From NCBI GenBank assembly GCA_034620365.1, contig JAQGEQ010000037.1, forward strand, positions 331,678 to 395,677: 64,000 nt of DNA, in the 5' to 3' direction. The position numbers and the translations under genes are program-made. Source of the stretch: Pegea sp. RAD2-039 (Eukaryota; Chordata; Thaliacea; Salpida; Salpidae). Under the pieces are notes generated by a model, which ran no database searches, had not been told where the DNA came from, and worked only from the letters and a program-made list of their open reading frames with translations. This document shows, one piece after another, positions 3,590 to 62,885 of the stretch (positions are counted from its first letter, which is position 1; each line of letters starts with the position of its first letter).

Positions 3590-4990
3590 CTTTAAAGTTG
3601 AATAAAGAAGAACTGTTAACTATTGTATACAATAATATTAGATTTGACACCGAATCGACCTCTGAATATTTGTCAAGTTTTAAGATTAAGGTTTGATAGA
3701 TAATCCACTCTCTAACAACACTCTGAAGGGAGGAAAAGTCCCCAAATTTGTAAGAAAGCTATCATTACTCCTATTCATCAAAAGGGTCCATGATAAGACA
3801 GTACAACAAACCAATTTCGTTGACTTCAGTTATCAGCAGAACTGAAGAACTTATTATTCACAATCATACGAGCAGTCATTTGATGGAATACCATCTAATA
3901 TCAGATGTCCAGCATGGTCTTGGGAAAATAAGATCTTCCTTGAATCAACATCTCACTCTTCATAAAGAGCTTACAGTTCATTATGAAAGTAAGACTCCTT
4001 GTGACATCATATATCTCTGTTTTGTAAAGTGCTTGATTCTGTCTCACATAACAATCTCATTATTATTTTACAAAAATTAAAAATCACCAGATTTATCATA
4101 AGGTGGATTGAAGATTACTTATTACATAGAATCCAACAACCTCCTGTTAATAGATGTTTATCTACTCTTAGTTAAATCACCAGTTATGCTCCTCAGGGTT
4201 CTGTTCTAGGTACCCTTCTCTTTTGAACTTTCGTTGAAGAATTTTTCAGAAGACTAGCAGCAGTAGATGATGTCGGTGTGTTTGTGTATGCAGATGAAAT
4301 CAAGATATGTTTTTTTGTAATCCCTTAAAACTTCAAACGGCACTATGGACTTCAGAAAACTGGTCTATGTTCTGGCTTATATTCCATTAATGGATTTACT
4401 ATTCCACGAGAATCTTCGCTTAAGAAAACCGCTGCATTTCTTAGCTATTTGACTTTACATGGCATATTTATGTTTTCAATATCTTTGGTAAATCTATTAA
4501 TCTTGTCGACCTTATATTATTTATGTTTAATTCTTAAGATCTCTACTTTTTATCAATCTTTTCAATGTGTATGTACGTCTATTTCTTGAATACAATGGCA
4601 CTGCAGAGATGTTATATCAAGCTGGTCAAATCAAGAAAACCGAATCTATTCAAGATACATTTGCGAGATAGTTTGCAGGAGAATTAAAATTAAATACAAT
4701 AGTTATAAACATTGTGTCAGTTTCTCCAATTTAGATACTTTGGAATTTCGACAAATTATATACGAATTAATTATTATGTTTTAAAATGTCTCCAGGTTAG
4801 TTTGCTTTCATTTTGAAGATTTCTTTTCCATTAGTCCATTCTTCAAGATTATCAGCTTAAATCCCCTGGTGCGTTGGTCTGAGCAAATTTTTACTTATTC
4901 GGCACAATAAGTACTTGGAGCCAACTGCTATCCGAAATTGTCAAGTCAGAACCAATAATGCTGTTATGATTTAATGTAAATGTAACGATT
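3590..4990 (+). mobile_element. Decayed non-LTR retrotransposon fragment (unit 1)
   Basis: Frame-shifted pieces of a reverse transcriptase read along the plus strand. They are: KPISLTSV with HNH..SHLMEYH (about 3800-3900), DVQHGLGK, a degraded VPQGSVLG block near 4190-4220, a VYADE remnant near 4288 in place of the YADD catalytic motif, and C-terminal connection sequence ending near 4990. The best comparison is the longer fragment at 50596-51845. Many stops and shifts make it inactive. It belongs to the same CR1/Jockey-like family as all LINE relics here. The family assignment is inferred from motifs only. Confidence 0.8.
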
Positions 4991-5500
4991 TTACTGGTAT
5001 AATATTGATTCAGCTAAAATTGTTTTGAAAAGTATTTTATCAATAAATTTAAACCAAGAAACGAATAAACTCATTTGGTTAATTATTTTAGCTAACAAGT
5101 AATTATATTTGTTTAAAAAAATTTGAGTTAAATCACTTTAAATATTAAAAGAATAACTTTATATTGCTTCAACGATTATTCCATCTTCATAGAATTATTT
5201 CAAGTATCGTTTGAGATAAAACTTCAGAATATATTCAAAAATGGTGAAGACAGAGCTGGGATTAAAATATGTAGAGGAAAGACTTGTAAAAAGTTTGACT
5301 GTTAACGAAATTGTGTTTTTTTTTATCGAAAAACTTCAAGTTTATATTAATAACTTAAAAGGTCAAGTTATAGAGCACGTTTCGATTGTTTTATTTGAAT
5401 ATTGTTTTTAGAAAATCTTAAGGCTTACTGAAAAAACTAATTGATAATTTTTGCATTAAGTTGTAGGATTTATTTTTGAGAAGATCAGTTCTTTGTAGTT

Positions 5501-6336
5501 ATGTTGAAAATGACAGGGAGTTCTGTGCATAAAAGAAAAATGAAAAAGAACCAACTAAGAAGTGAAAAAATGTTATCGAACTATTTCAATTCAGTCAAAG
5601 ATGGGACAGAGCACTGCAAATTCTGTTTCTTGCCTTTCTCTGACAAAAACAGGTAAAAGAAATTAATCATCATCATTTTTATGCTTTTAAAAGGTCATCT
5701 TTAAGCCTCTTACGACACAAATGTCCCGCTAATAAGAGATCGAATCGTTACAAGTATTTTAAAGATGAAGCTGATGAGCAAATCACTTCTAGGTTTGTAT
5801 ATCATAATGTTGTTAAAAGCATTGTGGAATAAAACTTAAAAACCTTTAGAAGTGTTTACAAAGTCAAAGTCTTACACAAAGGAAAGCTTGGTGGGAGATA
5901 TTTCAGGGCCCCTATAACTGACTTATTAGTTGTAAAAAGAGAAATAAAGTTTGTACAATTATCAATTTCAGTGATCAAAATAAATTAAAAAGTTTTCAAA
6001 TTACTTTTAAATGATCTGTTTTTCAGCAACTCCGAGCAATCAATAAAACTACGTCAAGATTGTTGCAATCATACTGAAAACCCTTCTATTTCACTTAAAG
6101 TTAAAAGTATTAGAAGGAAACCAAGTAATATTTTGCCAACTCCATATTTAAAACCAAATAAAAAACTTTTTAAAGAGCAAAAAAGAACTCCAGCTCGTCA
6201 GCTACCAGTTGTCTTCAAGAAAGAATTAGAGGATAACCAGATTGACCAATTTAATGGAATATCTTTTCTGCAGCTACTTGATCCTCTTCAAGACCCTTAT
6301 GCTTCACTTCGAGATTTTTTAAGACTTCATCAATGA
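5501..6336 (+). CDS. Three-exon small basic protein with Cys-Cys-His-Cys cluster, copy 1
   Basis: Exons 5501-5652, 5694-5792 and 6027-6336, 186 aa. Introns are 41 bp (GTAAAA..AAAAG) and 234 bp (GTTTGT..TTTCAG), and phases 2 and 2 agree. Residues 20-65 hold HCKFC, then about 16 residues later RHKC (C39, C42, H59, C61). This could be a small zinc-binding module of BED or C2H2 type, although the H-x-C spacing is not canonical. The C-terminal half is Lys/Arg-rich and ends in a distinctive LLDPLQDPYASLRDFL tail. The reading frame and splice sites are kept in the second tandem copy, which argues that it is a real gene. Function is not recognised. Confidence 0.72.
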
Positions 6337-8257
6337 GTTGACTAACGATTATTTTTTAGTTAATTAAATCTGATATGCATTAGTAGCGTTTTCACAAGTT
6401 GTGTTTTTATTATTTTTTGTTTACTGCTAAATTTATAATTTTGTTCCGTTTAAAGTAGTAGAAAAATAAATTTTATCTTCAAAATTGTTTTTTTAATAAT
6501 TTAATTTAGATGCAGTTTACCATTAATAACTCAGTTATAATAATAAGAAATAAATTTTCTAATATTGGTTCTTGTTGTTCACATAGACATCTTCTGAAGC
6601 TACGTTTGAGTTTAGCACTGATAATGTCATCTAAGCAGTGAAAGAAAGGCAAAAAAGTTTTAGTTATAAAATTAAATTTTCATATTTCCAATTTAGAAAG
6701 CTTTTGATGACTGGCTCAAGAACGATTAAAGTATTTGTTGAATGAGGAGCAAAAAGAAAAATACATCATCAGCCGTCCTTGTCTTTACCTTAAGGATTTT
6801 TTCAAGTACTTTCATTATCATCAATTGGGACATATTAAAATAGATATTTAATATATGCCTAACAAAATTAAAAAATAGATAAAACCTTGAAAAAGATAGA
6901 AGTTATTAAATGCTACTCTTTATAGCAGTACTAGAAAGTAAAACAGTGTCCAAAAATAACAACATTAGAAAAACATATAAAAACAAATCCTTTTACTCAT
7001 AAGCTTCAAAACCACTTATTTTTTTTATTTATACAAATTGCTTTCCCTAAACAGGTAATTCCAACTTTCTATTTATTATCTAAATTAAATTAATATTTAA
7101 TCAAGTAATCATTAAAATAAGGTTTACTTCGCCGTTATAAGAAAACAGATTTTTTTACATTATTTTAAATAAATACAATAATAAATAAAACTTTATGTTT
7201 CACATAATATATCTATAATAAAGTCTCAGAAAATACAAAACATACAGCGACAAGTAATTTCAATTTTTAAAAATTCGTATAATTATGATACCTTGAACGA
7301 ACTTTTGTTAACCAGATAACTTGTTTATCATTTATAAAAGCTAAAGAGTAATGAAAACCTAGATATGATGCTTATAAAACAACACCAAATAAAGTATTGC
7401 TTAGATATGGATTATTTTGAATTGTATTTAAATAATTCTTTAACTTGTTGTTGAAGATTGACTTTTAATTGAAAATATCTGAAAAAAGATTAAATATTTT
7501 ACTTTACAAAAATACAAATATAAAATTGGAAAATAAAATCCTGTTTAAAAATAATCATCTAAAAACTTTTTTTTACAAAAATAAACCATGAAAATTTATT
7601 ACAACATTTTTAGACAGTTACCTGGTAAATCGTATACCAATATTTTGAAACTAATTCTTAAATTAAAAAAAACAATTTCAACCACAACTTGCTTTTGAGA
7701 AATCTTACTGTTTTCAGTTTGTTTATATTTTTTACAAATTTATGTAACTTAAATGGTAATTCCTTGTTCTTTTATCTAAAGTACTGTGTAAAAATTTGAT
7801 TTATTAAAAAAAACAATTTGTTTGTTAAGTGAACAGAATGTTATTTCTATTTCTGGAAAATCATTAAAATGTTTGTTAGATTTGATAGTTTCCTATTACC
7901 TTCTGAAAAATTATTAACATTTGCTAAAATAATTAAAACATAATATACTTAATTTTCAGCCTAAATTAAAACAAATTTAAAACCAAATTTCAAAATTTCG
8001 TTAAATTATATAAGAAAAAAGCTTTTGTAAAGTATTATTTCTTGTGGTAATGTTATTCTAATTCAAGCAAACTTTTAAAAACGGTCTATTATAAAACAGC
8101 CTGTTTCTACATTTTATCAAATTCTTAGCACAAGCATAAGTTTTGTAAGAAGTCGAAATTGTGACTGTTTAAGACTTTTAATTTTGAATATATCATCGTG
8201 TTTTGAAAACTAGATTTTGAAAAATTCTTGAAAAATATTCAAAAATTGTTACTGATT
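6337..8257. other. Inter-gene flank, no gene seen
   Basis: AT-rich non-coding DNA. A ~125 bp block at about 6710-6835 also occurs at 14950-15075 and 55240-55372, so it is a family repeat. The rest (6850-8257) is the shared upstream flank of the C2H2 genes and reappears at 15090-15950, 16260-16725 and 57030-58000. Confidence 0.6.
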
Positions 8258-9600
8258 TTACACCTAAAATCACTAATAAAATTATGATTGAAAAAAACAT
8301 ATTAGATAATACTCCTTATAAACGTTTTATTATTTCATTTCAAATATTTTTCATTTATTTTAAATATTTCGATTCAGTCATATTATTTGTAAATTCAATT
8401 TTGTTACATTCAACTATTTTCTTTTTACTTGCTTTTAATAGTTTAAAATTTATATTTTGTTATTTCGCAATATTTTGTTTTTATAGTTCTTTTCCTCTTT
8501 TCTCTCGTAAATTGTTTATTTAAAAAAAACAATTACATAAAAATATTATTCTCTTGACGATTTAAAACTGTTTGAGCAGTGTTAAGAACTGTTATTAGCT
8601 ATTGGTAACAAAATTCTTTTAACATAATTCTTTTTAATGAAAAGACTTTTTTCTTAGGCCTTGTTTTTTTTTCAATCAGGTAACTTGCTAGAAGTCTAAA
8701 TTATTTTATCCAAAAAATTAATTAGTTCACTGGATAGTTTTGTAAAAAGTCTCTTTTTCTATCTGGTTTTAAAAAAATTCTTTGCTCAGTTTATCGTGTA
8801 GTTTTTCTGTAGAAAAAAATTTGTTAATAATTCTATTAGAATTAAGCAAAGAAATTTGCACAATTTTAAAGTTTTGTTTTAATTACTTGGCTTGTAAAAA
8901 AGTATACCATATAAATGAGTTTAGTTAATATAGATGTTGGTAGCTTGAATAGTCTAACTTCCAATAAATTTGGTTATAAAGTTTTCAGAAAGTCATAATT
9001 GGTTTAATTGATTTGAGTAAAAAGATCATCTAAATCTCAATCAGGCACAAAATGTAATAAGTACCATAAAAGGTATTCCGTCATCAAATGGTTTATTGTG
9101 TCTTACTATAAAAAGAATTAGTTTTTTCTATTATAAATTGGTTTATAGATTTTACTTTTTTATATGGCTTTTTGTATTTTTCATTGAATACAGTGTTTTT
9201 TTCAGTAAAAACGTTTTGATTAAGTTAGGTTTGTTGTTGTTGCTTTTACTTACTATAAAAACATTCTCTTCTGGTTTCAACATCTAAAACCTAAAAATAT
9301 TTATTCAATACTTTAAACATTATTCAAACTTTTTTTTTTTCTAAATAACAAAAGTCAAAATGTTTTATTTGCTTACAATCGCTTAGCATAAACAAAGAGT
9401 TTTTTTCTTAGGTTTACCCAGATACAAAAAAAATATTTAAAAAAACTCTTTATACTACAAGTTAAAAAGCATACAATCTTTTAATTTCTTCTTAAGAATA
9501 TTTAATTTAATTTTTATTCTATTTTCAGACTTTAAGAGCCGTACAAAGTTATTTTAATTTTTTGACTGTCTCTTTTTTGTTTGAGCTTTAAGCTTTAGAT

Positions 9601-10842
9601 ATGGCAGAACCTGAAGATGAAACCGCTAATCATGAATTTCTGAATAATCAACGGAATCTTTCCTCAAATGCTGCTAATCATTCTAATCAACCTCCAAGAA
9701 CCGATGCTACAACTCATCAACCTGTGTCATTTGAGAATGATACCGGTATGAGAGATATACTTGGATTCCAACAAACCGTAGAAAGCCTAAATAATGGGGA
9801 TTATTCAGTAGCTGGGACCAGCTTTGAAAATCCATTTGGTTTACTAAGTTACTCTTCTGCTTACCCAGTAACAAATAGTAGTTATGCTGCTATGCAACCT
9901 TCTTATGCTGGCTTCCAATATCCAGCTTATACAAGTTTCCTAACCGGTAGACTCAATCAACTCTCGCCTCAAAATCATTTGTACAGTCAAGAAAACATTT
10001 TGGGGTCTTTGAGAAGTCAATGGCTTCACCAAACTCAAAACATGTTTGAACGGCTGAGAGATGATTTAAGACAGAGTAACCAAGTTGAAGATGGTAGAAT
10101 TAATCATCTTCACAATCAAGTTCTGAATAATCAACGAAATACTTTTACACCTTTTCTAGAACAACCTCAACTAAGCCACCTTTATCAATCTCTTCAAGAT
10201 CAATATTCCAACTTGCAATCAGTAGCTTCTACATCTGGTAATAATATCACATCTACAGCGAATCATCATCAAGCTGAGAGTAATCATAGCAATCAAATGT
10301 CTTCGACAACTTCAGCGAGCTACTCAACACCTCAGCAGAGTCATGGGCAAATCGGATTGTCTGGAATTCCTAATAATCTAGCTTATGCTCCTTTCCAAGC
10401 AAGCCATACTCGACACCATTTTCGTCCATATCCAATTTATAGTCCTAGAAAAGAGTTTCTGAGAAACTTAAGTCGTGATCAATTAGAAAGCATGGTTGAG
10501 GAATTGCATGATCGAAACCACTTCCTAGCTGCTACTTCAAATCATGGCTTTCAACTTCATCAATACCTAATGAAGGAAGCTGTGAATACGATGCAGGATT
10601 CTGAGCGATCTGTTGATTTTAGAAGCTACACTGGACCTCCTAGAGAAGATGGTAAAGTTGAATGTGTCCCTTGTAAGAAGCTTTTCTCCTGTAGATCTAC
10701 AGCCTTGGTTCACATTAAATCAACCCATATGGGATTTGTCTACAGCTGTCCAGTATGTGGCGAGACATTCAACAGGAAGCTCACGAGAGATCGACATCTT
10801 AATAATCCAAATATTCATCCTCGTAATCCTCCAACGAATTAA
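9601..10842 (+). CDS. Two-finger C2H2 protein, tandem copy 2 (zf2)
   Basis: 413 aa, same architecture as zf1, with the Asn/Gln/Tyr-rich body and the C-terminal fingers CVPC-x12-H-x4-H and CPVC-x12-H-x6-H intact. Compared with zf1 I count about 15 amino-acid-changing differences and about 8 silent ones. From about codon 17 to codon 160 the two genes look identical. Differences cluster in the last half, and those inside the finger coding region are mostly silent. That fits constraint on the fingers and gene conversion in the 5' part. An AATAAA lies after the stop near 10951. Confidence 0.88.
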   Translation: MAEPEDETANHEFLNNQRNLSSNAANHSNQPPRTDATTHQPVSFENDTGMRDILGFQQTVESLNNGDYSVAGTSFENPFGLLSYSSAYPVTNSSYAAMQPSYAGFQYPAYTSFLTGRLNQLSPQNHLYSQENILGSLRSQWLHQTQNMFERLRDDLRQSNQVEDGRINHLHNQVLNNQRNTFTPFLEQPQLSHLYQSLQDQYSNLQSVASTSGNNITSTANHHQAESNHSNQMSSTTSASYSTPQQSHGQIGLSGIPNNLAYAPFQASHTRHHFRPYPIYSPRKEFLRNLSRDQLESMVEELHDRNHFLAATSNHGFQLHQYLMKEAVNTMQDSERSVDFRSYTGPPREDGKVECVPCKKLFSCRSTALVHIKSTHMGFVYSCPVCGETFNRKLTRDRHLNNPNIHPRNPPTN

Positions 10843-11819
10843 GACTCAATTACGAAAAAGTTTCGCTCTTCTGAGATTATAATTAAACGATCTTTTTCTG
10901 ATGATCTTTAAGTCTTTTGAAATGATTAGTTCTTTTGAGTTCGTTTTTCTAAATAAAAACATTCTCAAAATTTTAATAAAGGATAAATGTTGTTTTGGTA
11001 TGTTTTATCTTTGCATAGTATTGAATAAATTAAATTGAAATGCTTATAACAACGCTTTGTTAAACATAAGTTGTTATAAATAAAATCTTTAGTTAAATGC
11101 AAGTTTAAGTTATTTAAAACTAAACATTTGTCATTTTTTCATCATTTCTTAGAACATAACAAAAAAAACTTAATCTGACATAAAACTCAAATTAATTCTT
11201 GTCTAGAAATGGTTAAACTAAATTTTTAGACTTTAAAACATTACTTTAAGTTATAACAGTCTGTTTGTTATACATTTTTTAGTGATAATTTTAAAAAGTG
11301 GTATTTTTAATCATTAAATACAAACAAACAATTTTTATATATAATCTTAATAAGTTTTTTACATGTTTGTTTTAACTTAAAAGGAAACATAAGTAAACGG
11401 ATTTATATTGAAATGTTTTGTCTTCAACTTCAACAGTTAATAAGTATTTTTTTCTGAAGATCATTTAACACAACTCCTTCTCACATTTTAATATCAAAGT
11501 AATTTAGGAGACTATTGAAGACTTTCTCGCTTAACTTATCAAATTTAGAATGTGTTGTGTTAAAACTATGCTCAAGAAATAAATGATTATTTTTATTTGT
11601 TTAGTTATTTTTAATGCCAAATGAGACATGGCTACAAATAACAAATGATATAGAAAACATAACACAGTATAACCGCAGTAAAAAGAAAAATAAAATGTTT
11701 GAATGCCACAACTCATAAGATTTAAGGACAGTAACAGAATTTGATATTGATTTATAAAGTAGTTGCTTATTAAAGTATTTAATCAGAATAATTTTCAGCA
11801 ACTAAACTCTGAGCAGAAA
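10843..11819. other. 3' flank of zf2, no gene seen
   Basis: Counterpart of 2595-3589, noticeably diverged from it by substitutions and small indels. It contains the conserved poly(A)-like AATAAA hexamers shortly after the stop. Minus-strand open stretches around 11531-11801 differ from those of unit 1 and are low complexity, so they are not called. Confidence 0.5.
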
Positions 11820-13240
11820 AATTGTGGTCGATAACGAAATCGTTAAAGTTGAATAAAGAAGAACTATTAACTATTGTATACACTAATACTAGATTTGACA
11901 CAGAATCGACCTCAGAATGTTTGTCGAGTTTTAATATTAAGGTTTGATACATAATCCACTATCTAACAACACTCCGAGAGGAAGAAAAGTACCCAAGTTT
12001 GTGAGAAATCTATCATTACTCCTGTTCATGAAAAGAGACCTAGAAACACAACACTTAGCTACAAACCAATTTCGTTGACTTCAGTTGTCTGCAGAACTGA
12101 AGAACATATCATTCAAAATCATATAAACAGTCATTTGATGGAGCACCATTTACTATCTGATGTCCAGCATGGTCTTGGGAAAAAGAGATCTTCCCTGAAT
12201 CAACATCTCACTCTTCATAATGAGCTTACAGTTCATTATGAAAGTAATACTCCTTGTGACATCATATATCTCTGTTTTGTAAAGTGCTTGATTCTGTCCC
12301 ATATAACAATCTCATTATTTTTTTACAAAATTTAAAAATCACAAGATTTATCATAAAGTGGATTGAAGATTACTTATTACGTAGAATCCAACAACTTCCT
12401 GTTAAAAGATGTTTATCTACTCTTAGTTAAATCACTAGTTATGCTCCTCAGAGTTCTGTTCTAGGTACCTTTCTCTTTTTAACTTTCGTTGAAGAATTTT
12501 TCAGAAGACTAGCAGCAGTAGATGATGTCGGTGTGTTTGTGTATGCAGATGAAATCAAGATATGTTTTTTTGTAATCCTTTAAAACTTCAAACGGCACTA
12601 TGGACTTTAGAAAACTGGTCTATGTTCTGGCTTATATTCCATTAATGGATTTACTATTCCACGAGAATCTTCGCTTATAAACCGCTGCATTTCTTTACTA
12701 TTTGACTTTACATGGCATATTTATGTTTTCAATATCTATGGTAAATCTATTAATCTTGTCGAACTTATATTATTTATGTTTACTTCTTAAGATCTTTACA
12801 TTTTATCAATCTTTTCAATGTGTACGTACGTCTAATTCTTGAATACAATGGCACTGCAGAGATGTTATATCAAGCTGGTCAAATCAAGAAAACCGAATCT
12901 ATTCAAGATACATTTGCGAGATAGTTTGCAGGAGAATTAAAATTAAATACAATAGTTATAAACATTGTGTCAGTTTCTCCAATTTAGATACTTTGGAATT
13001 TCGACAAATTATATACGAATTAATTATTATGTTTTAAAATGTCTCCTGGTTAGTTTGCTTTCATTTTGAAGATTTCTTTTCCATTAGTCCATTCTTCAAG
13101 ATTATCAGCTTAAATCCCCTGGTGCGTTGGTCTGAGCAAATTTTTACTTATTCGGCACAATAAGTACTTGGAGCCAACTGCTATCCGAAATTGTCAAGTC
13201 AGAACCAACAATGCTGTTATGATTTAATGTAAATGTAACG
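11820..13240 (+). mobile_element. Decayed non-LTR retrotransposon fragment (unit 2)
   Basis: Same insertion as at 3590-4990, duplicated with the unit. RT fragments readable here include KPISLTSV-like sequence near 12065 and SHLMEHH with DVQHGLGK (about 12130-12180), then shifted VPQGSV-type and YADE-type remnants. The 3' part (about 12500-13240) is almost identical to unit 1, unlike the 5' part. The element is inactive. Confidence 0.8.
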
Positions 13241-13755
13241 ATTTTACTGGTATAATATTGATTCAGCTAAAATTGTTTTGAAAAGTATTTTATCAATAAA
13301 TTTAAACCAAGAAACGAATAAACTCATTTGGTTAATTATTTTAGCTAACAAGTAATTATATTTGTTTAAAAAAATTTGAGTTAAATCACTTTAAATATTA
13401 AAAGAATATCTTTATATTACTTCAACGATTATTCCATCTTCATAGAATTATTTCAAGTATCGTTTGAGATAAAACTTCAGAATATATTCAAAAATGGTGA
13501 AGACAGAGCTGGGATTAAAATATGTAGAGGAAAGACTTGTAAAAAGTTTGAATGTTAACACAATTGTCTTTTTTTTGTATCTAAAAAACTGCAAGTTCAT
13601 ATTAATAACTTAAAAGGTCAAGTTATAGAGCACGTTTCGATTGTTTTATTTGAATATTGTTTTTAGAAAATCTTAAGGCTTACTGAAAAAACTAATTGAT
13701 AATTTTTGCATTAAGTTGTAGGATTTATTTTTGAGAAGATCAGTTCTTTGTAGTT

Positions 13756-14590
13756 ATGTTGAAAATGACAGGGAGTTCTGTGCATAAAAGAAAAATGAAA
13801 AAGAACCAACTAAGAAGTGAAAAAATGTTATCAAACTATTTCAATTCAGTCAAAGATGGGATAGAGCACTGCAAATTCTGTTTCTTGCCTTTCTCTGACA
13901 AAAAGAGGTAAAACTACTTAATCATCATCATTTTTATGCTTTTAAAAGGTCATCTTTAAGCCTCTTACGACACAAATGTCCCGCTAATAAGAGATCGAAT
14001 CGTTACAAGTATCATAAAGATGAAGCTGATGAGCAAGTCACTTCTCGGTTTGTATATCATAATGTTGTTAAAAGCATTGTGAAATAAAACTTAAAAACCT
14101 TTAGAAGTGTTTACAAAGTCAAAGTCTTACACAAAGGAAAGCTTGGTGGGAGATATTTCAGGGCCCCTATAACAGATCTGTTAGTTGTAAAAAGAGAAAT
14201 AAAGTTTGTACAACAACGAATTTCAGCGATCAAAATAAATTGCAAGGTTTCCAAATTACTTTTAAATGATCTGTTTTCAGCAACTCCGAGCAATCAATAA
14301 AACTGCGTCAAGATTGTTGCAATCATGCTGAAAACCATTTTATTTCACTTAAAGTTAAAAGTATTAGAAGGAAACCAAGTAATATTTTGCCAACTCCATA
14401 TTTAAAACCAATTAAAAAACTTTTTAAAGAGCAAAAAAGAACTCCAGCTCGTCAGCTACCAGTTGTTTTCAAGAAAGAATTGGAGGATAACCAGGTTGAC
14501 CAGTTTAATGGAATATCTTTTCTGCAGCTACTTGATCCTCTTCAAGACCCTTATGCTTCACTTCGAGATTTTTTAAGATTTCATCAATGA
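13756..14590 (+). CDS. Three-exon small basic protein, tandem copy 2
   Basis: Exons 13756-13907, 13949-14047 and 14281-14590, 186 aa. Exon lengths (152, 99, 310) and phases match copy 1 exactly. The 41 bp first intron is kept. The second intron is 233 bp, one base shorter than in copy 1. The Cys-Cys-His-Cys cluster is intact. Differences from copy 1 are single substitutions spread over the exons, for example Thr to Ile in the N-terminal part, Phe to His in exon 2 and Leu to Phe near the C-terminus, with no stops or shifts. Such preservation in both copies supports a translated gene. Role unknown. Confidence 0.72.
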
Positions 14591-15958
14591 GTTGACCAAC
14601 GGTTATTTCTTAGTTAATTAAATCTGATATGCATTAGTAGCGTTCTTACAAGTTGTCTTTTATCATTTTTTGTTTACTGCTAAATTTATAATTTTGTTCG
14701 GTTTAAAGTAGTAGATACATAAAATTTTTCTTCAGAATTCTTTTTTTTAAATATTTAATTTAGACACAGTGTACCATAAATAATTGGTTTTAATAATAAC
14801 ACAATAAATTTTCTAACACTGGTTCTTGATGTTCGATAAACATCTTCTTAAGCTACGTTTAAGTTTAGCACTGACAATGTCATCTTAGAATTGTAAGAAA
14901 GGGAAAAAAGTTTTAGTTATAAAATTAGATTTTCATATTTCCAATTTAGAAGGCTTTTGATAACTGGCTCAATAACGATTAAAGGATCTGTTACATGAGG
15001 AGCAAAAAGACAAATGCATCATCAGCCGTCCTTGTCTTTACTTTAAGCATAGTTTAAAGTACTTTCAACACCAGCAATTGGGAGATATTAAAATAGATAT
15101 TTAATTTATGCATAACGAAAATAGAAGAAAATATGAGAGCTTGAAAAAATAGAAGATAATAAAAACCAATCTTAATAGCAATACTAGAAAGTAAAACAGT
15201 GTCCAATAATAACAACATTAGAAAAACATATAAAAATAAATCCTTTTACTCATAAGCTTGAAGACCACTTAATTATTTTATATTTATACAAGGTGCTTTC
15301 CATAAGCAGGTAATTCCAACTTTCTATTTATTATCTAAATTAAATTAATATTTAATCAAGTAATCATTAAAATAAAGTTTACTTCGCTATTATAAGAAAA
15401 CAGATTTTTTTACATTATTTTAAATAAATACAAAAATAAATAAACTTTATGTTTAAAGCAAATAAGTCTAAAATAAAGTCTCAGAAATTGCAAGACGTAC
15501 AGCGACAAGTTACTTCGTTTTTTAAAAATTCGTATAATTATGTTAGCTTGAACGAACTTTTTGCTAACCAGATAAACTGTTTATCATTTATTAAAGCTAA
15601 AGAATAATGAAAACCTAGATATGATACTTATAAAACAACACCAAATAAAGTATTGCTTAGATTTGAATTATTTTGAATTGCATTTAAACAATTTTTTAAC
15701 TTGTTGTTGAAGATTGACTTTTAATTGAAAATATCTGAAAAAAGATTAAATATTTTACTTTACAAAAATACAAAAAAAAAATTGGAAATAAAATCCTGTT
15801 TAAAAATAATAATTTAAAAACCTTTTATTACAAAAATAAACCATGAAAATTTATAACAACATATTTAGACAGTTACCTGGTAAATCGTTTACCAATATTT
15901 TGAAACTAATTCTTAAATTTCGAAAAACAATTTCAACCATATCTTGAAAAATGTATGT
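14591..15958. other. Inter-gene flank of unit 2, no gene seen
   Basis: AT-rich sequence matching 6337-7700 of unit 1. It includes the ~125 bp family repeat at about 14950-15075. No open frame with coding character was seen on either strand. Confidence 0.6.
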
Positions 15959-25110: not shown

Positions 25111-28054
25111 ATGGAGTCTACTGCTGACCGCAAATCTTATGTGAAAAAACATGTCAATAAAAGTAAGTTTTAGACAAAATTTATTTGTCCTAGATATTAA
25201 CCACTTTTTATTAGCTAACAAGGATGAAAAACCAAAATGTGAGGTCTGTCAAGATCTAATTAAACCCAAAGGTGTCAAGAAAAACAAAGTTGTCCGTAAA
25301 GGCAAGCACTACGGAGTGATTTGCTGCGAAGCATGCAAATGCTTTTTCTGGCGAACTGTTAAATCCAGTAAAACTTACATTTGTAAGTATACCAAGAATT
25401 GTGCTCTAAGAGATTTAGGAAAATGCCAGTATTGTCGCTTTAAAACTTGTCTTGAAGTAGGAATGAATATGAAAGGTGAGTTTACTAAATAATTTTTCTT
25501 TTGTCATTTTTTATATAAAATTTGACAGGCATTCAAGATGGCAGAAAGCCAGGTGGACGAAATCCTGATGTTATAGCTGTGATTGTAAGTTATTTTTTTA
25601 CAGTTGATTTCTTAAAACGACTTTATTTCTTTAGAAGCCAAAACATATTAGAAACAAGATTTTAATGGGGGAAATGTGGGGTGATGATGAACTTAATAAT
25701 GAAAGGGTAAGTAGTTATAACAATCATGAAAGTTTAAATAACATTTTCACGTTAAAAGGAAAATAATTTGGAAGAAATTTCAAATGAAAATCCTTCATCA
25801 AGCAATCAGCTAGATGAACCAATTCATACACAATTATCAACTGATCCTTCCAATGAAAATAAAACAGAATCTAATAGTTCTACCGAACTCAAATGCAAAC
25901 GAAAAACAACCCAGGAGAGCCAACAAAAAAAGAATGTTCCAACCAATTCCAGTCAACAAAACGGTAAATCCATCTTTGTTTAAAATCTATATATGTATTG
26001 GTTTTTACTTATTTGTTGTTTTACTTTTGGCAGAATAGTTTTGATTATTATCAATTTTTTTTTGTGTTTTTGTCATTTCTTGAAAGAATTTCGATTGAGC
26101 TATGTAACTATGAAACTGGTAAAACAGCAAAATTATTCTGCTATTTAACTTGCAAACTAAATTGGTTTTCAACATTAAAGAACTATACTTAATTTTGTAA
26201 TCTCTTCATTTCGTTTATAAACTAAAAAAATTAAATTTATTAGTTTGTTCAAAAACTAATGTATTTTTTTTATAATTCAATGCTTTTCATTGAATCATGA
26301 ACTTTATCTAAAATGTCTGTTTAGTTAAGAAAAAATCAAATGACAATTTAGACCATTTTCCAGATCTTTGCGATGAAACTAGAAGCGAATCACAGACTGA
26401 TGAACAATGTCAAGTAAGAAAAAATTTTCAATAAATGGTCAGGTCTAATGAAAATTATTCAGGTTGAAAGCCCACCAAACGTAGAAAATACCGCTGGCGA
26501 CTGTCAAAATTCAAATGTAGATGTTGACTCAAGCTCATTCTCTGATGAAGAATGTAAGTTTTAAAAATAGAGAAGTCTCAAGTAAATATTGATATATTGA
26601 GACTCCAAAATGTTATCTTTAAGATTTTAATTAAAAGTATTGATGTTATATTTTACCGGTAACTTTTCTTTGTAAGGTTAAGAAATATCCTTAGAGTTCA
26701 TTATTAATAGTTAATTAAAAATTTTGTTTTCAGCAATTACTGGTTTTTTTATAATGATACCATCAATTATTTAGATAAAATATACTGTATAATTTATTCT
26801 GCGGTAGTACTATTTATTTAGCTAACTCTAATAACAAAGATTATATACTTTTGTAACTTTTTTGTTAGTTTACTTTTTCTAACTAATCTTTTTATAACTG
26901 TAAAAAGAAAAATTATATTTCTTATCATTAAGCTTGCTTGTACTCTTATTGCAATTTAAGTAACAACAAAAATTCTCAATTTTTTTAACTAGTCAGAAAT
27001 GAATTTTCTGAATTGATTGAGTGTTGGGATAAACATAGAGTAAAGCAGAGGATTGGTGAACAATATCAAGTAATTTATAATTTACTGTATTTGAGCAATT
27101 ACTAAAATATATTTGTAGATTACCAATTTACCAGAGATTAACAGAACTTTTGAAGAAGTTGAGTTGTCAAAGCTAACTTTTGACTCGAAGCGTTTATCTG
27201 ATGAAGATGGTAGGTTTTTTCAAAGATGGACATTTGTAATAGTTAATAAATTAAAACTCAAAAGTATTAACCTGTAATTAATAAATAAGATTTTTAAATT
27301 TAAAATATGTTTTTATTAAGTTTGTTGAAACAATAGTTCACCAGCAATGACAATTTTAATATTCTATTTTTTTTAAGCAAAACATTTTATATCCACTTGC
27401 TCTGAACAAAATCCAACAAGTGATGGTAAGAAAAATCATTCAGAAATTTTCTATGAGGAAGCATTTGAAGTCTTATCTAAAAATGACTATAACGTTAAAA
27501 AGGTAAATGATAAAATACATAAATATTAACAATTCACTTGTTTCTTATTTGGTTTACATTCCCAATAAATGTTAAAGTCTTACAATTTGACAATTAAAAA
27601 AATATATTTTGAAATTCTTCCGATTTTATTCTAAAGCTTAACCTATGATTTTATTTTAAGGCTTTTGAAACTTATTCTATCAAGCAAAAAAATACTCCTT
27701 TTATGGAAAATTGGAGCATCAATGATCGTAAAATGTTTGTAAGGGGTTTCCGTAAACACAAAAAGAATTTCATGAATATACAGAAGGACTATGTTAGTAA
27801 ATTCATTAGCTATATCCTTTTTATTTTTTGAGTCAACTGTAAACAATTTAATCCATTTTGAATACTTTTAGAAAAAAAAGAAATTACTTTTTGTGATTGT
27901 TATTAAGATTACATAAATATCTAATATATTTATAACTTTACTTATACAGCTCAAAGACAAAACAGTTAAAGAAGTCGTCCAATTTTATTATCGTTGGAAG
28001 AAAAATCGCCGATGTCGAAGATCTAGCGTGAGGATATCCAGAAGGAATCGATAA
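25111..28054 (+). CDS. Nuclear-receptor-type zinc finger fused to ELM2-SANT (MIER-like) domains
   Basis: Twelve exons: 25111-25162, 25215-25475, 25529-25584, 25635-25706, 25759-25963, 26325-26413, 26463-26553, 26993-27069, 27119-27209, 27378-27502, 27661-27792 and 27950-28054. Total 1356 bp, 451 aa, all GT-AG and in phase. Residues 26-101 form a C4 receptor DNA-binding domain: CEVC..CEACKCFFWRT, then C-x5-C-x7-C-x2-C and LEVGM, followed by KGIQDGRKPGGR. Residues 130-275 are acidic and Ser/Asn-rich. Residues 276-331 are ELM2-like (QRIGEQYQITNLPEI). Residues about 389-438 are SANT (NWSINDRKMFVRGFRKHKKN, VVQFYYRWKK), closest to MIER/MTA proteins, which recruit histone deacetylases. There is no ligand-binding domain. 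It is probably a nuclear repressor. The exact start is uncertain. Confidence 0.85.
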
Positions 28055-44232: not shown

Positions 44233-45477
44233 CTACTGATTTCCATCCTTTAGAAATATGTGATTAAGCAATTGATTGGCAGTAGGTCTTTTCTTTTCTT
44301 CTATGTTCCAGCTTGATGTTATCAGATTTCTTAAAAGTGGATTCTTGATTTTTTGCAGACGAGATTGTAGATCATTTTGAGTCCATGATCTATTCTTAAG
44401 CTTTTCTTTAAAGTCTTCAGAGCGATAAAGAGCTTCAAATGGATGGACTTTATACAGGATGAAGTAAAATGTGGCACCAACAGCAAACACATCAGTCGAT
44501 TTTTTATATGAAATTGGCAATTTCCACATAATCGATCGAACAACTTCAGGCGGTTGGTATGGTAGAGTTCCATGAGCTTTTAAGATGTATGGGTCATTTG
44601 ACACCATACATACTGATCCAAAATCAGAAAGTTTAAAACTATAATCTTTTCCATCATAAAAAACCAGAATATTTGAAGGTTTTATATCTCGATGTAATAG
44701 TTCGCTGTTGTGGAGATAGATCACTCCTGTTAAAATATGTTTAAACATCGTGTTTAACAAATCCGGAGTGATAATATTCATACGAGCAAATTGGTTAGCG
44801 TTTCCTTTATCTGCTAATTCAAGACACAAACTGAAGTCGGAGATGTTGCTCTCTTCCTTAAAGACATGAACAATATTTGGATGTTTGATGCTCATCAAAT
44901 ATGTCTTCTCGTTTTTCAAAGCTATTTCTCTACCGTACCACTTATTAATACCTGAACAGAATTCAATTGTTTTCACTGCAATCAGCTTTTTTCTATCCAC
45001 TGAATAAGCAGAATACACTTTTCCAAAGCTTCCTCTACCAATATTTTCTATTGCCAACATCTTTTCACCAACATAAAGTGGTAAGCTTATACTGTTATCA
45101 AAAACGATGATTTGAAGCGTGTAATCTTCGAAACAAAATTTGTTTGAAGTTTTATCAAGAATTATGGTTCCCGGATGTAGTTTACAGTGTTCCTTTAATT
45201 TTGGATCAGCTTGTTTCCTGGTTATGAACGACACCTTATAAAAGTTCTCAACCAGTTCTCGATGCAAATAAAACGATGGGATGTCTGAAGATAGTTCCAT
45301 ACATCGATTACCACGCCAATTTGTGATTTTTTTTATTGATAAGCTTCCATTAAATTCTGTTTGGATTTTATAAAAGGCTTCATTCTCCTCAAATGTATGA
45401 ATCAACTGTTTTGTTTGTTGGTTCCATAGGATGCCCCATGTTGTAGGTTTTTTACCCGAGTAATATCTTCTATCCAT
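44233..45477 (-). CDS. Serine/threonine protein kinase, single exon
   Basis: 414 aa. Kinase domain about 140-409 with all core residues: glycine loop GRGSFGKV (147-154), AVK Lys169, a likely helix-C Glu184, HRDIKPSN (262-269), DFG (285-287), QPPEV in the APE position (308-312), the TDVFAVG Asp329 and the RP Arg397. HRDIKPSN with Lys indicates Ser/Thr specificity. The first ~135 residues have no domain I recognise; they are charged with alternating hydrophobic segments. The DFG region (FKLSDFGS) and TDVFAVGATFY recall IKK/TBK1-like kinases, but this is only suggestive. Intronless while nearby genes are intron-rich, so a retrocopy origin is possible. It is expected to be active. Confidence 0.9.
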   Translation of the reverse strand: MDRRYYSGKKPTTWGILWNQQTKQLIHTFEENEAFYKIQTEFNGSLSIKKITNWRGNRCMELSSDIPSFYLHRELVENFYKVSFITRKQADPKLKEHCKLHPGTIILDKTSNKFCFEDYTLQIIVFDNSISLPLYVGEKMLAIENIGRGSFGKVYSAYSVDRKKLIAVKTIEFCSGINKWYGREIALKNEKTYLMSIKHPNIVHVFKEESNISDFSLCLELADKGNANQFARMNIITPDLLNTMFKHILTGVIYLHNSELLHRDIKPSNILVFYDGKDYSFKLSDFGSVCMVSNDPYILKAHGTLPYQPPEVVRSIMWKLPISYKKSTDVFAVGATFYFILYKVHPFEALYRSEDFKEKLKNRSWTQNDLQSRLQKIKNPLLRNLITSSWNIEEKKRPTANQLLNHIFLKDGNQ

Positions 45478-48400
45478 TCTTAAACAACTTTTCTAAATCA
45501 AAATCTAAAAATAGAGTTGTTTATTAGCAGTTTCTAAAGACTGTCAAAATCCTTAAGCGTAATATTTCATGAGAAGTTACATTAAATGAGACATTGAATT
45601 TCTCATTTTATAGTTATATTCATTAAAAATAAGATTTATTACTTTTAACAAAATACAATCTTCACTTGAAAAACAAGTTAACAAGCTAAAGCTTAAGCAA
45701 TAATTCACTTTTATAAAATAAAACAGCAACTAAACTAGAATTTCAGCACAAAAAGCTACATAAGAAATATGTATGACTCTACTACATAGCAATATATATA
45801 CACCAACAAATGAAACATAACTTATCTTGAACTTGTACTACTTTTACTACTTAAGTTAGTGGAAAACTTTTTAAATAAATACTTTTGCTTGTAAGTACAC
45901 ATTTCTTAAGTTTTCTTCTTACATAAAACAACTTTTTTAGAGTTTTGTAAAGACTACTAGTTTATTATAAATTAAATTCTACTAGTTTGAAGCTCAATTT
46001 AGAAATAAATTGAATATTCTTTGTGCTACTAACAAAAAAATATGCTTGGTCACACTTCATTAGTTTGATAAGATCTAATCAACTGTCTAAATTTAAAATT
46101 TTCAAATTTATTTAACTTTCAGAATTTTATTTTAATCAGAATAACAAAGTTTCAACTGTTAACTGAAAAAAGTTCAAGAAGTTTATTTGTGGTTTGATTT
46201 CTCTAAAACATGTCATTGTGTTTAAATGGACTCGGTTTGAATATTTTTTAGTTTTTTATAAATTTTATCTCATTTAAAAGTTACTTTAATTCAAATAATA
46301 CAGAAGAAATGATCTTAAGTATATACAACTTGACTAGAAAATTGAACTTTCTCCAATTCTGATTCTGATATATTGCTAATTATTTGAATTAACTTGTTTC
46401 TTGTATTGTTCTAAATGCTAAACTATTAATTAAAAAAATGTCAAGTGCAATTTCTAACAATAATCATCGACGAAACATATAATAAAAATATTTATTGCTC
46501 ATCAGTACTTATTTGAATTTACATCCAAAGTAATGTGGTACATGGTGGATTTCTGCTAAAGTCACATTTAATTTAAACAAGTTATGTTTTGCAAATTACA
46601 AATTAAGTCTCCCCAAAAAGGAAACATTCGAGATATTTTTCTTAAATTGTTAAAATATGTACTCATTATGCTTAAGTTCATTTGATTATTAATAAAACGC
46701 CTAAGGGCAAAAAGCAGAAATGTAGTTCAAAAATACTTACTAGTTTTTCTTGATTAAACTAAAGATATATCAAATGGTGAAATATGGTGAATAAATTTAA
46801 ATATATTTAATCGTTGGTTCACAGAGTATGCTAAAAAGGATTTCTATTATAAATTGAAATAAAACTAATTGTACCTTCTTTTTTATTTATGACTTTTTCA
46901 CAAACTATTCACAAACAGATTTTGATATTATTAAAAAAATATTACAGCTGCTTAAAATAAATATCCTATAAAATTAATAAATATCATTATTAAGTAAAAA
47001 GAGCTAAGTATTTAGAAACGTTTGATAGTAGTAGATTATTGACAAACAATTACTCACCAAAGTAATAATAGCTGCTTGAGTTGATAAATTCATAGAGAAA
47101 AATAGATTGAATAAAATTTATTGTAATAGAATTTTATTCTCTAATTTAAACAAAAGTGTTTTTTTAAATCATAATTGAATCTTTTAAAAATGAGGTATTT
47201 GAGTACATTTGTAAGCTATAAAAATCATTTTTTAATAAGTATTTATTCAAAAAAAGCTGAATATTACCCTTCAAAATTGTTTTCTTAAGTTTTAAAGGCT
47301 GTATTGTTGTAGTAAATGGTAACATTGAATTTTTATAACTGAAAATTATTAACAAAAACATATCTGTTTATAAAGTGTTAAAATTTTTTTTAAAAATGTG
47401 TACACAACAACATCTTGTTGTGATTTTTTTAAGCTCATTTGCGTTAGCATGTAACATTTTAGGAGAATTTTGCGACCTGGTAAGGGTTAATACTGATTTT
47501 GCTCTACCCGGGAATTGAACCCGGCCCGTTTGCTTAATAGGCAGCGCTGTTTACCATTCAGCTATAGAGACATTTGCAAATCGTAAAAAAGTTGTATAAA
47601 TAGTTTATTTTCTCTGTTTTTTAAACAGCATACTCTACTGAAAACAAACCCCAAACAAAATTTAAGCTCAAAATATACAAAATATATTCAATTACATTCC
47701 AAATATACATTAAAAAAATTTTCAAAAAGTTTTAATTTTATATTTTATTTAAAAAAGTAAAAAGAATTTTTGATACGATTTGCATAGTTTTATTAATAAA
47801 TTTAATGAAATTTATCAATTTTACTTTAATCAAGATATTTGATTTATATATTTCACCAAATTAATACAATTATATAAGTACCTATACAACAAGTAAAAAT
47901 ATGATTTTGTAATTTCACTTTAAATGTTTATATTACCATAAATCATTTTCTGGATAGACTTAGATGTAATTAATAAGCACAATAAAGTTTAATTTATTTA
48001 AACTATAAAATTCGCAACCAAGAAAATTTAGTAACAAAGTACTTTTTAAAAAGCTCTATTGGGAGAAGTGAGCACATTTAATTGTTTGATTTGTTGTATT
48101 TCTATTTTGACTCTCAAGTGTTTGGTTAGTGTCCAAAGTTGTATAGTGATTGCGAAATCATATATTAGCTTAATAATTGAAGCACATTTTCAGAATAAAT
48201 TTTTATCAAGTTTTATTGAAGATAGTTTTTATAGATGGAATAACCTTATTTTAACTTTGATGTTGGAAGATGTGTACTTTAAAATTGAATACCTTTTTCT
48301 ACTGTTGGCTTATTCCACTTTGTTTTATATATTTTGATATAGGTAAAAAATTTATGCTACTACAAAGAAGCCTGTGACTAATTTAATTTTAAAAGTATTC

Positions 48401-59112: not shown

Positions 59113-61547
59113 ATGGCAGAATATGAAGATGAAACCGTTAATCATGAAATGGTGAATAATCAACAGAATTTTTCCTCAATTGCTGTTAATCATTCTAATC
59201 AACCTCCAAGAACTGATGCTACAACTCATCAACCTGTGTCATTTAGGGATGATACTAGTAGAACCAATACACTTAGCTACCAACAATCTGTAATAAGCCT
59301 AAATAATGGGTATTATTCAATAGCTGAAAACAGCTTTCAAAATCCATATGGTTTACTAAGTTACTCTTCTGCTTACCCAGTAATAACTAGTTATGCTGCC
59401 TTGGAACCTTCCTATGCTGGCCTCCAATATCCAGCTTATACAGGTTTCCTAACCAGTAACCTCTATCAAGTCTCGCCTCAAAATCATTTGTACAGTCAAG
59501 AACAGATTTTGGGGTCTTATGGTAGTCAATGGTTTCACGAAACTCAAAACATGGTTGAACGCATGAGAGAAGATTCAAGACAGGCTAGCCAAGTTGAAGA
59601 TGCTAGACTCAATCATCTTCACAATCGATTTCTGAATAATCAACGAAGTACTTCTACACCTGTTGTAGAACAACCTCAGCTGAACCACCTTTATCAATCT
59701 CTTCAAAATCAAGATTACAGCTCGCAATCAGCTACTGCTACAACTGAAATTAATAACATATCTACATTGAATCACCTACAAGCTGAGTATAATTATAGCA
59801 ATCAGATGTCTTTGACAACTTCAACGAGTTACTCAAGACCTCAGCAGAGTAATAGACAAATTGTATCATTTAAAATTCGGGGTTGTAATAATTCAGCTGA
59901 TAATCATTTCAAAGCAAGCCATTACCCTCAACAGTATCGTCCATATCCAATTGTTAGTCCAAGACAAGAGTTTCTTCAAAGCTTACGTAGTGATCAATTA
60001 GAGAACATTGGTGAAGAATTGCATGATCGAAACCAGTTCCTAGCTGCTACTTCAAATCATGGCTTTCATTTTCATCAACAACAAACGAACGAAGCTTTCA
60101 ACACGCAGCAGGATTCTGAGCAATCTCTTCATTTTAGAAGCTACATAGGACCTCCAAGACAAGATGGTAAAGTTGAATTTGTTTTTTTCAAAGAAGCTGT
60201 TCTCCTGTTTAACTAATTCCTTGGTTCACATTAATTCAATTCATCACTATTCACTAAATCAAAACAATTACTAGTATTTTTATATGGATACCGTCAATTA
60301 TTTATATAAAATTTACTGTATAGCTTATTTGGTGGTAATACTAGTAAATTAGCTAACTCTAATAATACAGATTATATAGTTTCGCAACTATTTTATTTGT
60401 TTACTTTTTCTAACTAATCTTTATATAACTGTAAAAAGAAATTTTATATTTCTTATCATTTATTTTGTTTGTACTCTTATTGCCATTTAAGTAACAATAA
60501 AAATTCTCAATTTTTTTTTAGTTAAAAAGGAATTTTCTGAAGTGAATGATTATTGCGATAAACATAGAACAAAGCCGAGTATTGGTGAACAATATCAAGT
60601 AACTTATAATTTGCTGCATTTGATCAATTACTAAAATATTTTTGTAGATTACCAATTTACCAAAGATTAACAGAACTTTTGAAGAAGTTGAGTTGTCAAA
60701 ACTAACTTTTGACTCGAAGCGTTTATCTGATGAAGATGGTAGGTTTTTTGAAAGATTGACATTTTTAATAGTTGATAAATTAAAACTCAAAAGTATTAAC
60801 CTGTAATTAATAAATAACATTTTTAAACTTAAAGTTAGTTTTTATAAAGTTTGTTGAAACAATAGTTCACCAGCAATGACTATTTTTATTTTCTGTTATT
60901 TTTTAAGCAATAAATTTTATATCCACTTGCTCTGAACAAAATCCAACAAGTGATGGTAAGAAAAATCATTCAGAAATTTTCTATGAGGAAGCATTTGAAG
61001 TCTTATCTAAAAATGATTATGACTTTAAAAAGGTATGTATTATACCAGATAAATACTAACAATTCACCTATTTGCCTTTTGCTTTACATTCCCAATAAAT
61101 ATCAAGGTCTTACAATTTGACAATTTAAAAAATATTTTTTGAGATTCTTCCAATTTTATTCTAAAGCTTAAACTGTTATTTTATTTTAAGGCTTTTAAAG
61201 CTTACTCAATCAAGCAAAAAAAAACTCCTTTTATGGAAAATTGGACCATCAATGATTGTGAAATGTTTGAAAAGGGTTTGCGTAAACACAAGAAGAATTT
61301 TATGAATATACAGCAGGACTATGTTAGTAAATTCATTAGCTACATTCTTTTTATTTTGTGAGTCAACTGTACAGAATTTAATCCATTTTGAATACTTTTA
61401 GAAAAAAAGAACTTACTTTGTATAATGTTTATTAAGATTAAATAAAAATCTAATATATTTATAACTTTACTTATACAGCTCAAAGACAAAACGGTTAAAG
61501 AAGTCGTTCAATTTTATTATCGTTGGAAGAAAAATCGCCGATCTTGA
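59113..61547 (+). CDS. Predicted fusion gene: C2H2-family N-terminus joined to ELM2-SANT
   Basis: Proposed exons: 59113-60166, 60522-60598, 60648-60738, 60908-61032, 61191-61322 and 61479-61547. Total 1548 bp, about 515 aa. Exon 1 is the Asn/Gln/Tyr-rich body of the C2H2 family (third copy, ~351 residues). At 60166 the codon GAT-G meets GTAAAG, a usable donor, in phase 1. The next exon has an acceptor TTTTTAG and also phase 1. The five following exons copy the receptor-like gene's ELM2 and SANT exons with the same lengths (77, 91, 125, 132) and open frames. They keep SIGEQYQITNLP and VVQFYYRWKK, ending early at an RRS stop. Unspliced, the C2H2 part reads on into a broken finger (CVPC is now FVFF) and stops at 60216. 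The splice across the junction is inferred. Confidence 0.6.
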
Positions 61548-62885
61548 AGAACTAGAGTGAGGATATCTTCAAGCAATCGATAAATTATTGTTGCGATCTT
61601 AAAGTTTACATATTGAAACTTGATATCTTTGATTGATGGTTTGCAAAAGATTTAATATTTTATTTTAATATGTTTTTGTGGTGTAAATTTATAAATTGAT
61701 GTAAATATTATTAGTAAAAGGTGATTACAAAATTTTCTGTAATGTTACTTTTTTGTAAACAGCAGGCTGCTAACTAAATTTTCAAAACATTATACTTTAA
61801 GTTTGTTTGGTTTTTAAGTATTTAAAAACTAGTAGCTTAAGCTAAAGCCAAGCAATTATTATTAGAGGTAGAAAAAAGAAAATAACTAAGATTTTTGACG
61901 AAGAGCTATCTTAACTAACAATCAAGTTTCATTAGAGTTAGATTGAAAAATCTTTAAGTGTGCAAAGTTGAGTAATATTAAGTAATGCCTACAACATAAG
62001 AGTTTAGTGTGAAGTTTCACGTTTCATGTTAATTAAAGTGTCACAGATGAATGACTTTAAAATAATGATTGATTCATAATCCAAACTTCTTTGACAAAAG
62101 TTTTTAAACATATGTTTAATTAAGAGTTTAATCAATATTCAGTTTATGGTACATTCTTTAAATTTAAACATTTTTGCTATATGAAACTGAATAAACATTT
62201 GAAATTCCATTTTACACTCTTTATATGCAGTATTTAAAATCATTCTCTAATTCAAATATATGTGAGAGCAAAGATTAATTTGATTGATTTTGCTAACAAA
62301 ACCAAAATAGTAAAATAGTTTTGAACAGTTGTGCAACTTAGCAACCAACACACTATTTTTCTAGTAGCCATACAATCCAATAACTACTTCAGTGGCATTA
62401 AAAACACTACATACTGTAAATGTCTTGACTAAAGCATAAATTGTTCAGAAAGCCTTTTAATCACTTTTGTTATCCTGAAGATGGGAAAGTGCAAATGTAA
62501 CGTATTACAAGAAACAAACATAAAGCGAAAAGTCAGTCTTTTGCTATACGATTATATTTAATCTTTTCTTTACTTTTGGGTAAGATTATATACTAAATTA
62601 GCTGATGGAGTATCAATTTAAGTTAAAATAATTGAATTGATTCAGAGATTGAGGATTTAAGTTTATTTGATATCATTAAGTTATCTCTGAAAGGCTTAAA
62701 TTGTAAGGCTTTTATATTGTTTAGATATTTAATTTTCTTATTTTTCCGAAAAACTTCTTTATATAAGTCCAGATTTTCAATTGCTTACGAATCAAGATGA
62801 TCTTGTCAAGATCATGGGTCCGTGCTTCAGAAAGGATTATTTTAATTTTGATGTAATGAAAATTTCTACAAAAAATGGTAAATCA
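60265..62885. repeat. Block N (copy 2) between C2H2 copies 3 and 4
   Basis: Matches 26730-29350 throughout. The left junction lies between about 60240 and 60268, where C2H2 gene sequence ends within the first finger and intron sequence of the receptor-like gene begins. The right junction is at about 62888, where AATGGTAAATCACAA is followed by leader sequence of C2H2 copy 4. The part after 61548 is 3' flank with no gene. Confidence 0.9.

Follow-up and report, generated by a model that had tools for sequence, protein, structure and literature searches.

A probable chimera of an NR6-type receptor zinc finger and a corepressor-type ELM2-SANT module in the genome of a salp

Can the DNA-binding finger of a nuclear receptor and a corepressor module of the ELM2-SANT type be encoded by a single gene, and from which genes would the two halves have come? 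The question is raised by a locus of Pegea sp. RAD2-039, in a stretch of 64,000 nucleotides (the window) that forms the final 64 kb of contig C106 in an assembly of 105.7 Mb and 387 contigs. Nuclear receptors are described as specific to animals in PMC7827873. A preliminary description of the window had proposed that 12 exons between 25111 and 28054 on the forward strand join in phase into a protein of 451 residues. The proposal was borne out, given that GT-AG borders were found at 11 of 11 introns and that a single frame stays open up to a TAA stop codon at 28054.

All exons lie on the forward strand. Exon 1 (25111..25162) contains the ATG start and residues 1-17 and ends at a GT donor, and exon 2 (25215..25475) encodes both C4 zinc modules. 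Exon 3 (25529..25584) encodes an NR6-like C-terminal extension (CTE) of the DNA-binding domain, GIQDGRKPGGRN, and exon 4 (25635..25706) contains the start of an NR6-like hinge, as read by eye (IRNKILMGEMW vs. LIEEILTGKFW in the NR6 gene of the same genome). Linker sequence fills the following exons, being of low complexity in exon 5 (25759..25963), acidic in exon 6 (26325..26413) and acidic with serine in exon 7 (26463..26553). The two longest introns of the gene are intron 7 (439 nt) and intron 5 (361 nt). The first part of a probable ELM2 domain (RIGEQYQ), which can be aligned with RCOR3, is encoded by exon 8 (26993..27069) and continues (ITNLPE...) in exon 9 (27119..27209). Exon 10 (27378..27502) encodes the helical region leading from ELM2 to SANT, EEAFEVLSKNDYNVKK, which aligns with RCOR3 and RCOR1. 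The SANT domain begins in exon 11 (27661..27792) with ENWSINDRKMFVRGFRKHKKNFMNIQKDY, for which the matches in the PDB are RCOR, MTA1, RERE and SMRT, and it ends in exon 12 (27950..28054) with the FYYxWKK motif, followed by a basic tail and the stop codon.

Searching the whole genome with the fusion protein gave 106 matches at E ≤ 0.1, many of which are other receptors. Contig C65 was found to carry three more intact copies, of 451, 451 and 457 residues, each with 12 exons and correct splicing sites. A chance joining of exons was ruled out because these three copies keep all 12 exons, including exon 1, together with the splice sites and the frame. Across the four intact copies, exon 5 is open and of the same length, and exon 9 shows no differences. 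Their identity with the window copy is 97.5-97.6% in exons and 95.7-98.0% in introns. Decayed relatives occur on contig C43, where five loci match and four were read. All four contain stop codons and have exon 2 reduced to its last 37 bases, and two have off-frame exon lengths. Two of the four span the 3' end of exon 2 through exon 12; in the other two, within the stretches read, homology stops in intron 10 and in intron 8, respectively. Furthermore, a copy of exons 8-12 only, with no zinc finger, lies in the window at 60522..61583 on the forward strand. Its homology begins in intron 7 (position 26734 corresponds to 60265) and its frame stops just after SANT. A second copy of this kind is located on C65 near 142 kb, where the homology likewise starts within intron 7 and a stop codon follows SANT.

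The C4 receptor finger that had been placed at the N-terminus is confirmed by a significant Pfam zf-C4 match (E 5.9e-15; 55.9 bits, cut-off 21.1). The first cysteine pair, C26 and C29, falls outside this match because the alignment covers residues 46-102 only. By direct reading, eight of eight zinc cysteines are present at unusual spacing (C26, C29, C55 and C58; C74, C80, C88 and C91), and all are retained in the four intact copies. The first zinc module reads C-x2-C-x25-C-x2-C, with x13 in NR6, giving a loop with 12 extra residues, and the second reads C-x5-C-x7-C-x2-C, with x9 in NR6, giving a loop that is 2 residues shorter. The DNA-contact region (P-box) is CEACKCFFWRT, compared with CEGCKGFFKRS in the NR6 of the same genome; thus, the same site preference as NR6 cannot be assumed. 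In the PDB the top match of exon 2 is NR6A1 (1.9e-17; 67 bits), barely ahead of RXR (4.5e-17; 65.8 bits). When modelled by itself with AlphaFold2, exon 2 reached a pLDDT of 48, too low for the model to be used, and exon 2 (86 aa) had no relatives among viral contigs or prokaryotic genome contigs. Nuclear receptors often, though not always, have a ligand-binding domain (LBD), and the preliminary description had contrasted the gene with receptors on this point. Pfam gives no Hormone_recep match in the 451-aa protein, and no LBD was detected in the four intact copies. A genome-wide LBD scan, which is weak because it also overlooked the NR6 gene at 329 kb of contig C42, yielded 13 matches, none of them on C106 or C65.

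The C-terminal half had been described as ELM2 plus SANT, of which the SANT half stood and the ELM2 part was not significant by itself; lack of a significant ELM2 match was among the results that the description had named as counting against it. When residues 271-451 were compared with the PDB by phmmer, the matches included RCOR3 (6.1e-16), RCOR1 (6e-13), MTA1 (2e-9), the SANT domain of RERE (8.7e-9) and SMRT (2e-5). The Pfam search that had been suggested recovered zf-C4, as above; it left ELM2 without a match in the 451-aa protein and placed Myb/SANT below threshold at residues 389-434 (19.1 bits vs. a cut-off of 24.4). The ELM2 stretch alone matched neither the PDB nor Pfam ELM2 up to E 10. 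A profile built from four related sequences aligned with RCOR3 in register (RIGEQYQ on RVGAEYQ), which is only suggestive, as 2 of 200 column shuffles reached the same score. The ELM2-SANT relative on contig C58 gave Pfam ELM2 an E of 0.015, below the cut-off, and its trimmed version gave no match. Pfam ELM2 had no match over the whole genome, and this is uninformative, as the controls were equally silent. The domain is nevertheless probably a diverged ELM2, because the core motif RIGEQYQITNLP is present, lies ahead of SANT and is accompanied by the weak alignment to RCOR3.

The origin of the two halves was examined through intron positions. The NR6 of this genome is a gene on C42 (L002, L048), which scores 139.7 bits with NR6A1 and 95.1 bits with the next best; LBD-like sequence can be read downstream of its finger, where the Pfam LBD scan is silent. 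In this gene, as in the fusion, the finger exon starts 7 codons and 2 bases before the first cysteine (for intron 1 the comparison covers the acceptor side only) and ends after GMNRK-G in phase 1, and the next intron lies, by reading, 8 codons past GGR in phase 0. In an NR6-type paralog on contig C79 (L047), which appears from reading to end before any LBD, the first two positions are those of the fusion and intron 3 is shifted upstream by one codon with its phase kept, so that the phases of the introns flanking exon 3 are those of both genes. Judged by place and phase, introns 1-3 of the fusion gene are NR6-type introns. A tree of DNA-binding domains had long branches and was not resolved, and the separation of the fusion from NR6 in it is weakly supported; the case for an NR6 origin is therefore based on gene structure together with the CTE and the hinge, and not on the tree. 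In the other half, the four ELM2-SANT introns of the C58 gene (L043; 39% identity with the fusion) agree in place and phase with introns 8-11, including the end and phase of exon 8 and the intron phases around exon 9.

Since introns 1-3 are of NR6A type and introns 8-11 of ELM2-SANT type, the gene would be a chimera that arose by exon shuffling, with the join within introns 4-7. The reading that we favour, with confidence somewhat above even, is that the first exons of an NR6A-type gene and the last exons of a short ELM2-SANT gene form a chimera encoding a ligand-free repressor with a built-in corepressor. Its receptor part would derive from NR6A/GCNF, itself a repressor. Recombination within introns 4-7 would have joined NR6A (GCNF)-type exons to ELM2-SANT exons, and the joined gene would then have been duplicated, partly in tandem. 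The predicted product consists of a receptor DNA-binding domain, CTE, hinge start, acidic linker, diverged ELM2 and SANT, in this order, with the LBD undetected.

Two adjacent genes that merely look joined would offer a different explanation, namely an LBD-less NR6-type gene (exons 1-5) followed by an ELM2-SANT gene (exons 6-12, 7-12 or 8-12). Copies of exons 8-12 without the finger do exist, at 60522-61583 and on C65, introns 5 and 7 are the two longest, and the NR6-type gene on C79 ends before any LBD, by reading. In three of the four intact copies an in-frame ATG lies in intron 6, five codons upstream of exon 7, and could start a finger-less protein; however, in copy C65b the frame from this position into exon 7 is closed. 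The methionine codons speak against two genes. Exons 5-10 lack one in all four intact copies, as do the open stretches preceding exons 6 and 8. In the window copy the gap extends from residue 137 (exon 4) to residue 388 (exon 11), and it is unchanged in the other three intact copies (residues 143 and 394 in the copy with an 18-nt insertion). A separate ELM2-SANT protein would thus need an unseen start exon or the intron-6 ATG. In addition, all junctions are in phase, and the order of the exons is the same in the four intact copies and in the two fullest of the four C43 copies. Judged from reading frames rather than transcripts, there appears to be little room for an independent start of the second half, and we consider the two-gene explanation quite unlikely.

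A single gene might also be a recent, unselected tandem duplicate that lacks function and is decaying as the C43 copies have done, with their stop codons, shortened exon 2 and, in two of them, off-frame exon lengths. That the intact copies are, overall, about as similar in exons as in introns would fit this explanation; however, four copies are free of stop codons, and their exons vary less than their introns. Variable sites amount to 53 of 1356 exon bases and 97 of 1568 intron bases (the 18-nt exon indel being excluded from these counts), and that in-frame indel is the only one in exons, compared with eight indel events in introns. The chance that 54 random exon changes drawn from the intron mutation spectrum would create no stop is P 0.022, and synonymous changes are in excess over the four copies (P 0.014). 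Whole-frame dN/dS, computed for five of the six pairs, is 0.40-0.55. In comparisons with the decayed C43 loci, gaps occur at 1 of 1079 exon positions and 16 of 1524 intron positions, and exon and intron identity with one of them, C43_1, shows little contrast (0.859 vs. 0.848). By region, ELM2-SANT is the quietest (6 nonsynonymous, 5 synonymous; P 0.065); the counts are 15 and 9 in residues 1-105 (P 0.054) and 14 and 5 in the linker (P 0.39), where dN/dS reaches 0.99 in one pair. These tests of constraint are modest, as no single region has P < 0.05 and changes were treated as independent though the copies are related. We consider a functionless duplicate very improbable. It is also conceivable, although unlikely, that the chimera is real and expressed and that its finger does not bind DNA, so that the protein, as a dominant negative in solution, would compete for HDAC1 or for partners of the NR6 family. 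The P-box and the spacing of the zinc loops (12 residues more in the first, 2 fewer in the second) are unlike those of NR6, and exons 1-2 are the most variable and fastest-changing region (24 changes in 315 bases); thus, the finger may bind DNA differently or not at all. This explanation is opposed by the eight zinc cysteines kept in every intact copy and by a dN/dS of 0.2-0.6 in the zinc-finger core (five pairs computed).

For the favoured ligand-free repressor, a mode of action can be proposed from known systems. NR6A1 binds as a homodimer to a DR0 of AGGTCA and contacts SMRT and NCoR, and in the account of PMC10909835 it acts solely as a repressor. The contact with SMRT and NCoR is made through the LBD region of NR6A1 (PMC3676325). 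ELM2-SANT brings in HDAC1/2, and the inositol-phosphate contacts, which in MTA1 comprise two tyrosines and two lysines, are described as common to RCOR, MIER and RERE (PMC4244562). In the fusion, the zinc modules would bind DNA at or near NR6-type sites; with the contact region and both loop lengths altered, the predicted sites may differ from DR0. The ELM2-SANT part would recruit HDAC1/2 together with inositol phosphate via FYYxWKK, a putative inositol-phosphate contact motif at residues 429-435 in which Y430, Y431, K434 and K435 may represent the MTA1-type contacts. Silencing of target genes would need neither a ligand nor the LBD with which NR6A1 engages SMRT/NCoR. With ELM2-SANT in the place of the LBD, the output would still be repression.

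The fusion resembles NR6A1/GCNF in its DNA-binding domain, its PGGRN-type CTE, the start of its hinge and introns 1-3 (as seen in the genome's own NR6), and differs from it in having no detected LBD, an altered P-box and loop spacing, and ELM2-SANT instead. With RCOR/CoREST, MTA, RERE, MIER and MIDEAS it shares a probable ELM2, connecting helices and a SANT domain with FYYxWKK; to our knowledge, none of these proteins carries a zf-C4 finger. Other ELM2-SANT corepressors have a second SANT, C2H2 domains or no DNA-binding domains. MTA1, unlike the fusion, carries BAH and GATA domains (PMC4244562). In having a receptor finger without an LBD, the fusion is similar to the NR6-type genes on C79 (L047, by reading) and C148, and L047 has the same exon layout across the finger; the C79 and C148 loci are absent among 50 matches to the SANT half. 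Receptors lacking an LBD include insect Knirps/NR0A and nematode odr-7, which are alike in this respect, and we know of no corepressor domain in these or in other LBD-less receptors.

The preliminary description knew of no such combination, and a fusion of zf-C4 with ELM2-SANT is likewise named in no title or abstract start of the literature searched, a collection that lacks most subscription papers. At the level of sequence there is good support for a new domain combination, in which two known modules of traceable origin are joined and which exists in several copies; its function is a prediction. Both types of parent gene persist in the genome, and their introns mark the join. Receptors may evolve via exon shuffling and not only via loss or divergence of the LBD. 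Furthermore, an LBD swapped for a corepressor-type SANT would provide a natural test of whether the body of a receptor is needed for anything beyond corepressor recruitment. A broader proposal, that a lineage-specific family of ligand-free repressors has taken the corepressor into the receptor polypeptide and that the ELM2-SANT cassette is a shuffled repression module, is possible but unlikely. It draws on a putative second joining in the same gene cluster, in which the cassette at 60522-61583 would be attached to the N-terminal part of a C2H2-type protein.

Several other features were observed in the window and the genome. Genome size, base composition and intron length had suggested a rotifer, but the rotifer spliced leader has no match with up to one mismatch, and COX1 has no match either. 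Zf-C4 matches number 100 in the genome and LBD matches 13, the latter from an exon-by-exon scan that overlooks some; thus, finger-only receptor genes may be expanded. Tandem zf-C4 exons (87-aa frames) recur with a period of about 4.15-4.17 kb on contigs C138, C150, C288, C291, C294 and C326. Frames of 401-641 aa with a zf-C4 finger were found at L044 (C48:15701-18200) and at loci on C212, C238, C341 and C183; in L044, the one that was read, long internal repeats precede the finger, shortly after which the frame ends.

Within the window, a C2H2-type ORF at 59065-60166 has a GTAAAG donor that is in phase with exon 8 of the finger-less copy at 60522-61583. The two may form a second chimera, comprising an N-terminal C2H2-type part and a complete SANT with a stop afterwards, and lacking the C2H2 protein's own zinc fingers. 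A 7.7-kb tandem duplication (1-7691 and 8259-15946; 94%) contains a duplicated protein of 413 aa with weak C2H2 matches. Of the 20 matches to this protein family, 19 lie on C106, C65, C79 and C148, the contigs that carry the intact fusion copies and the C79/C148 NR6-type genes. A LINE-type reverse transcriptase fragment at 50584-51270 is matched by Pfam RVT_1 (9.6e-21), and further fragments at 55228-55776 and 11967-12335 were recognised by eye and from repeat matches. A tRNA-Asn was called at 47500-47570 on the reverse strand with the unusual anticodon ATT, and is possibly a tRNA-derived repeat. The reverse strand also carries a single-exon protein kinase of 419 aa at 44233-45492 (Pkinase 2e-47).
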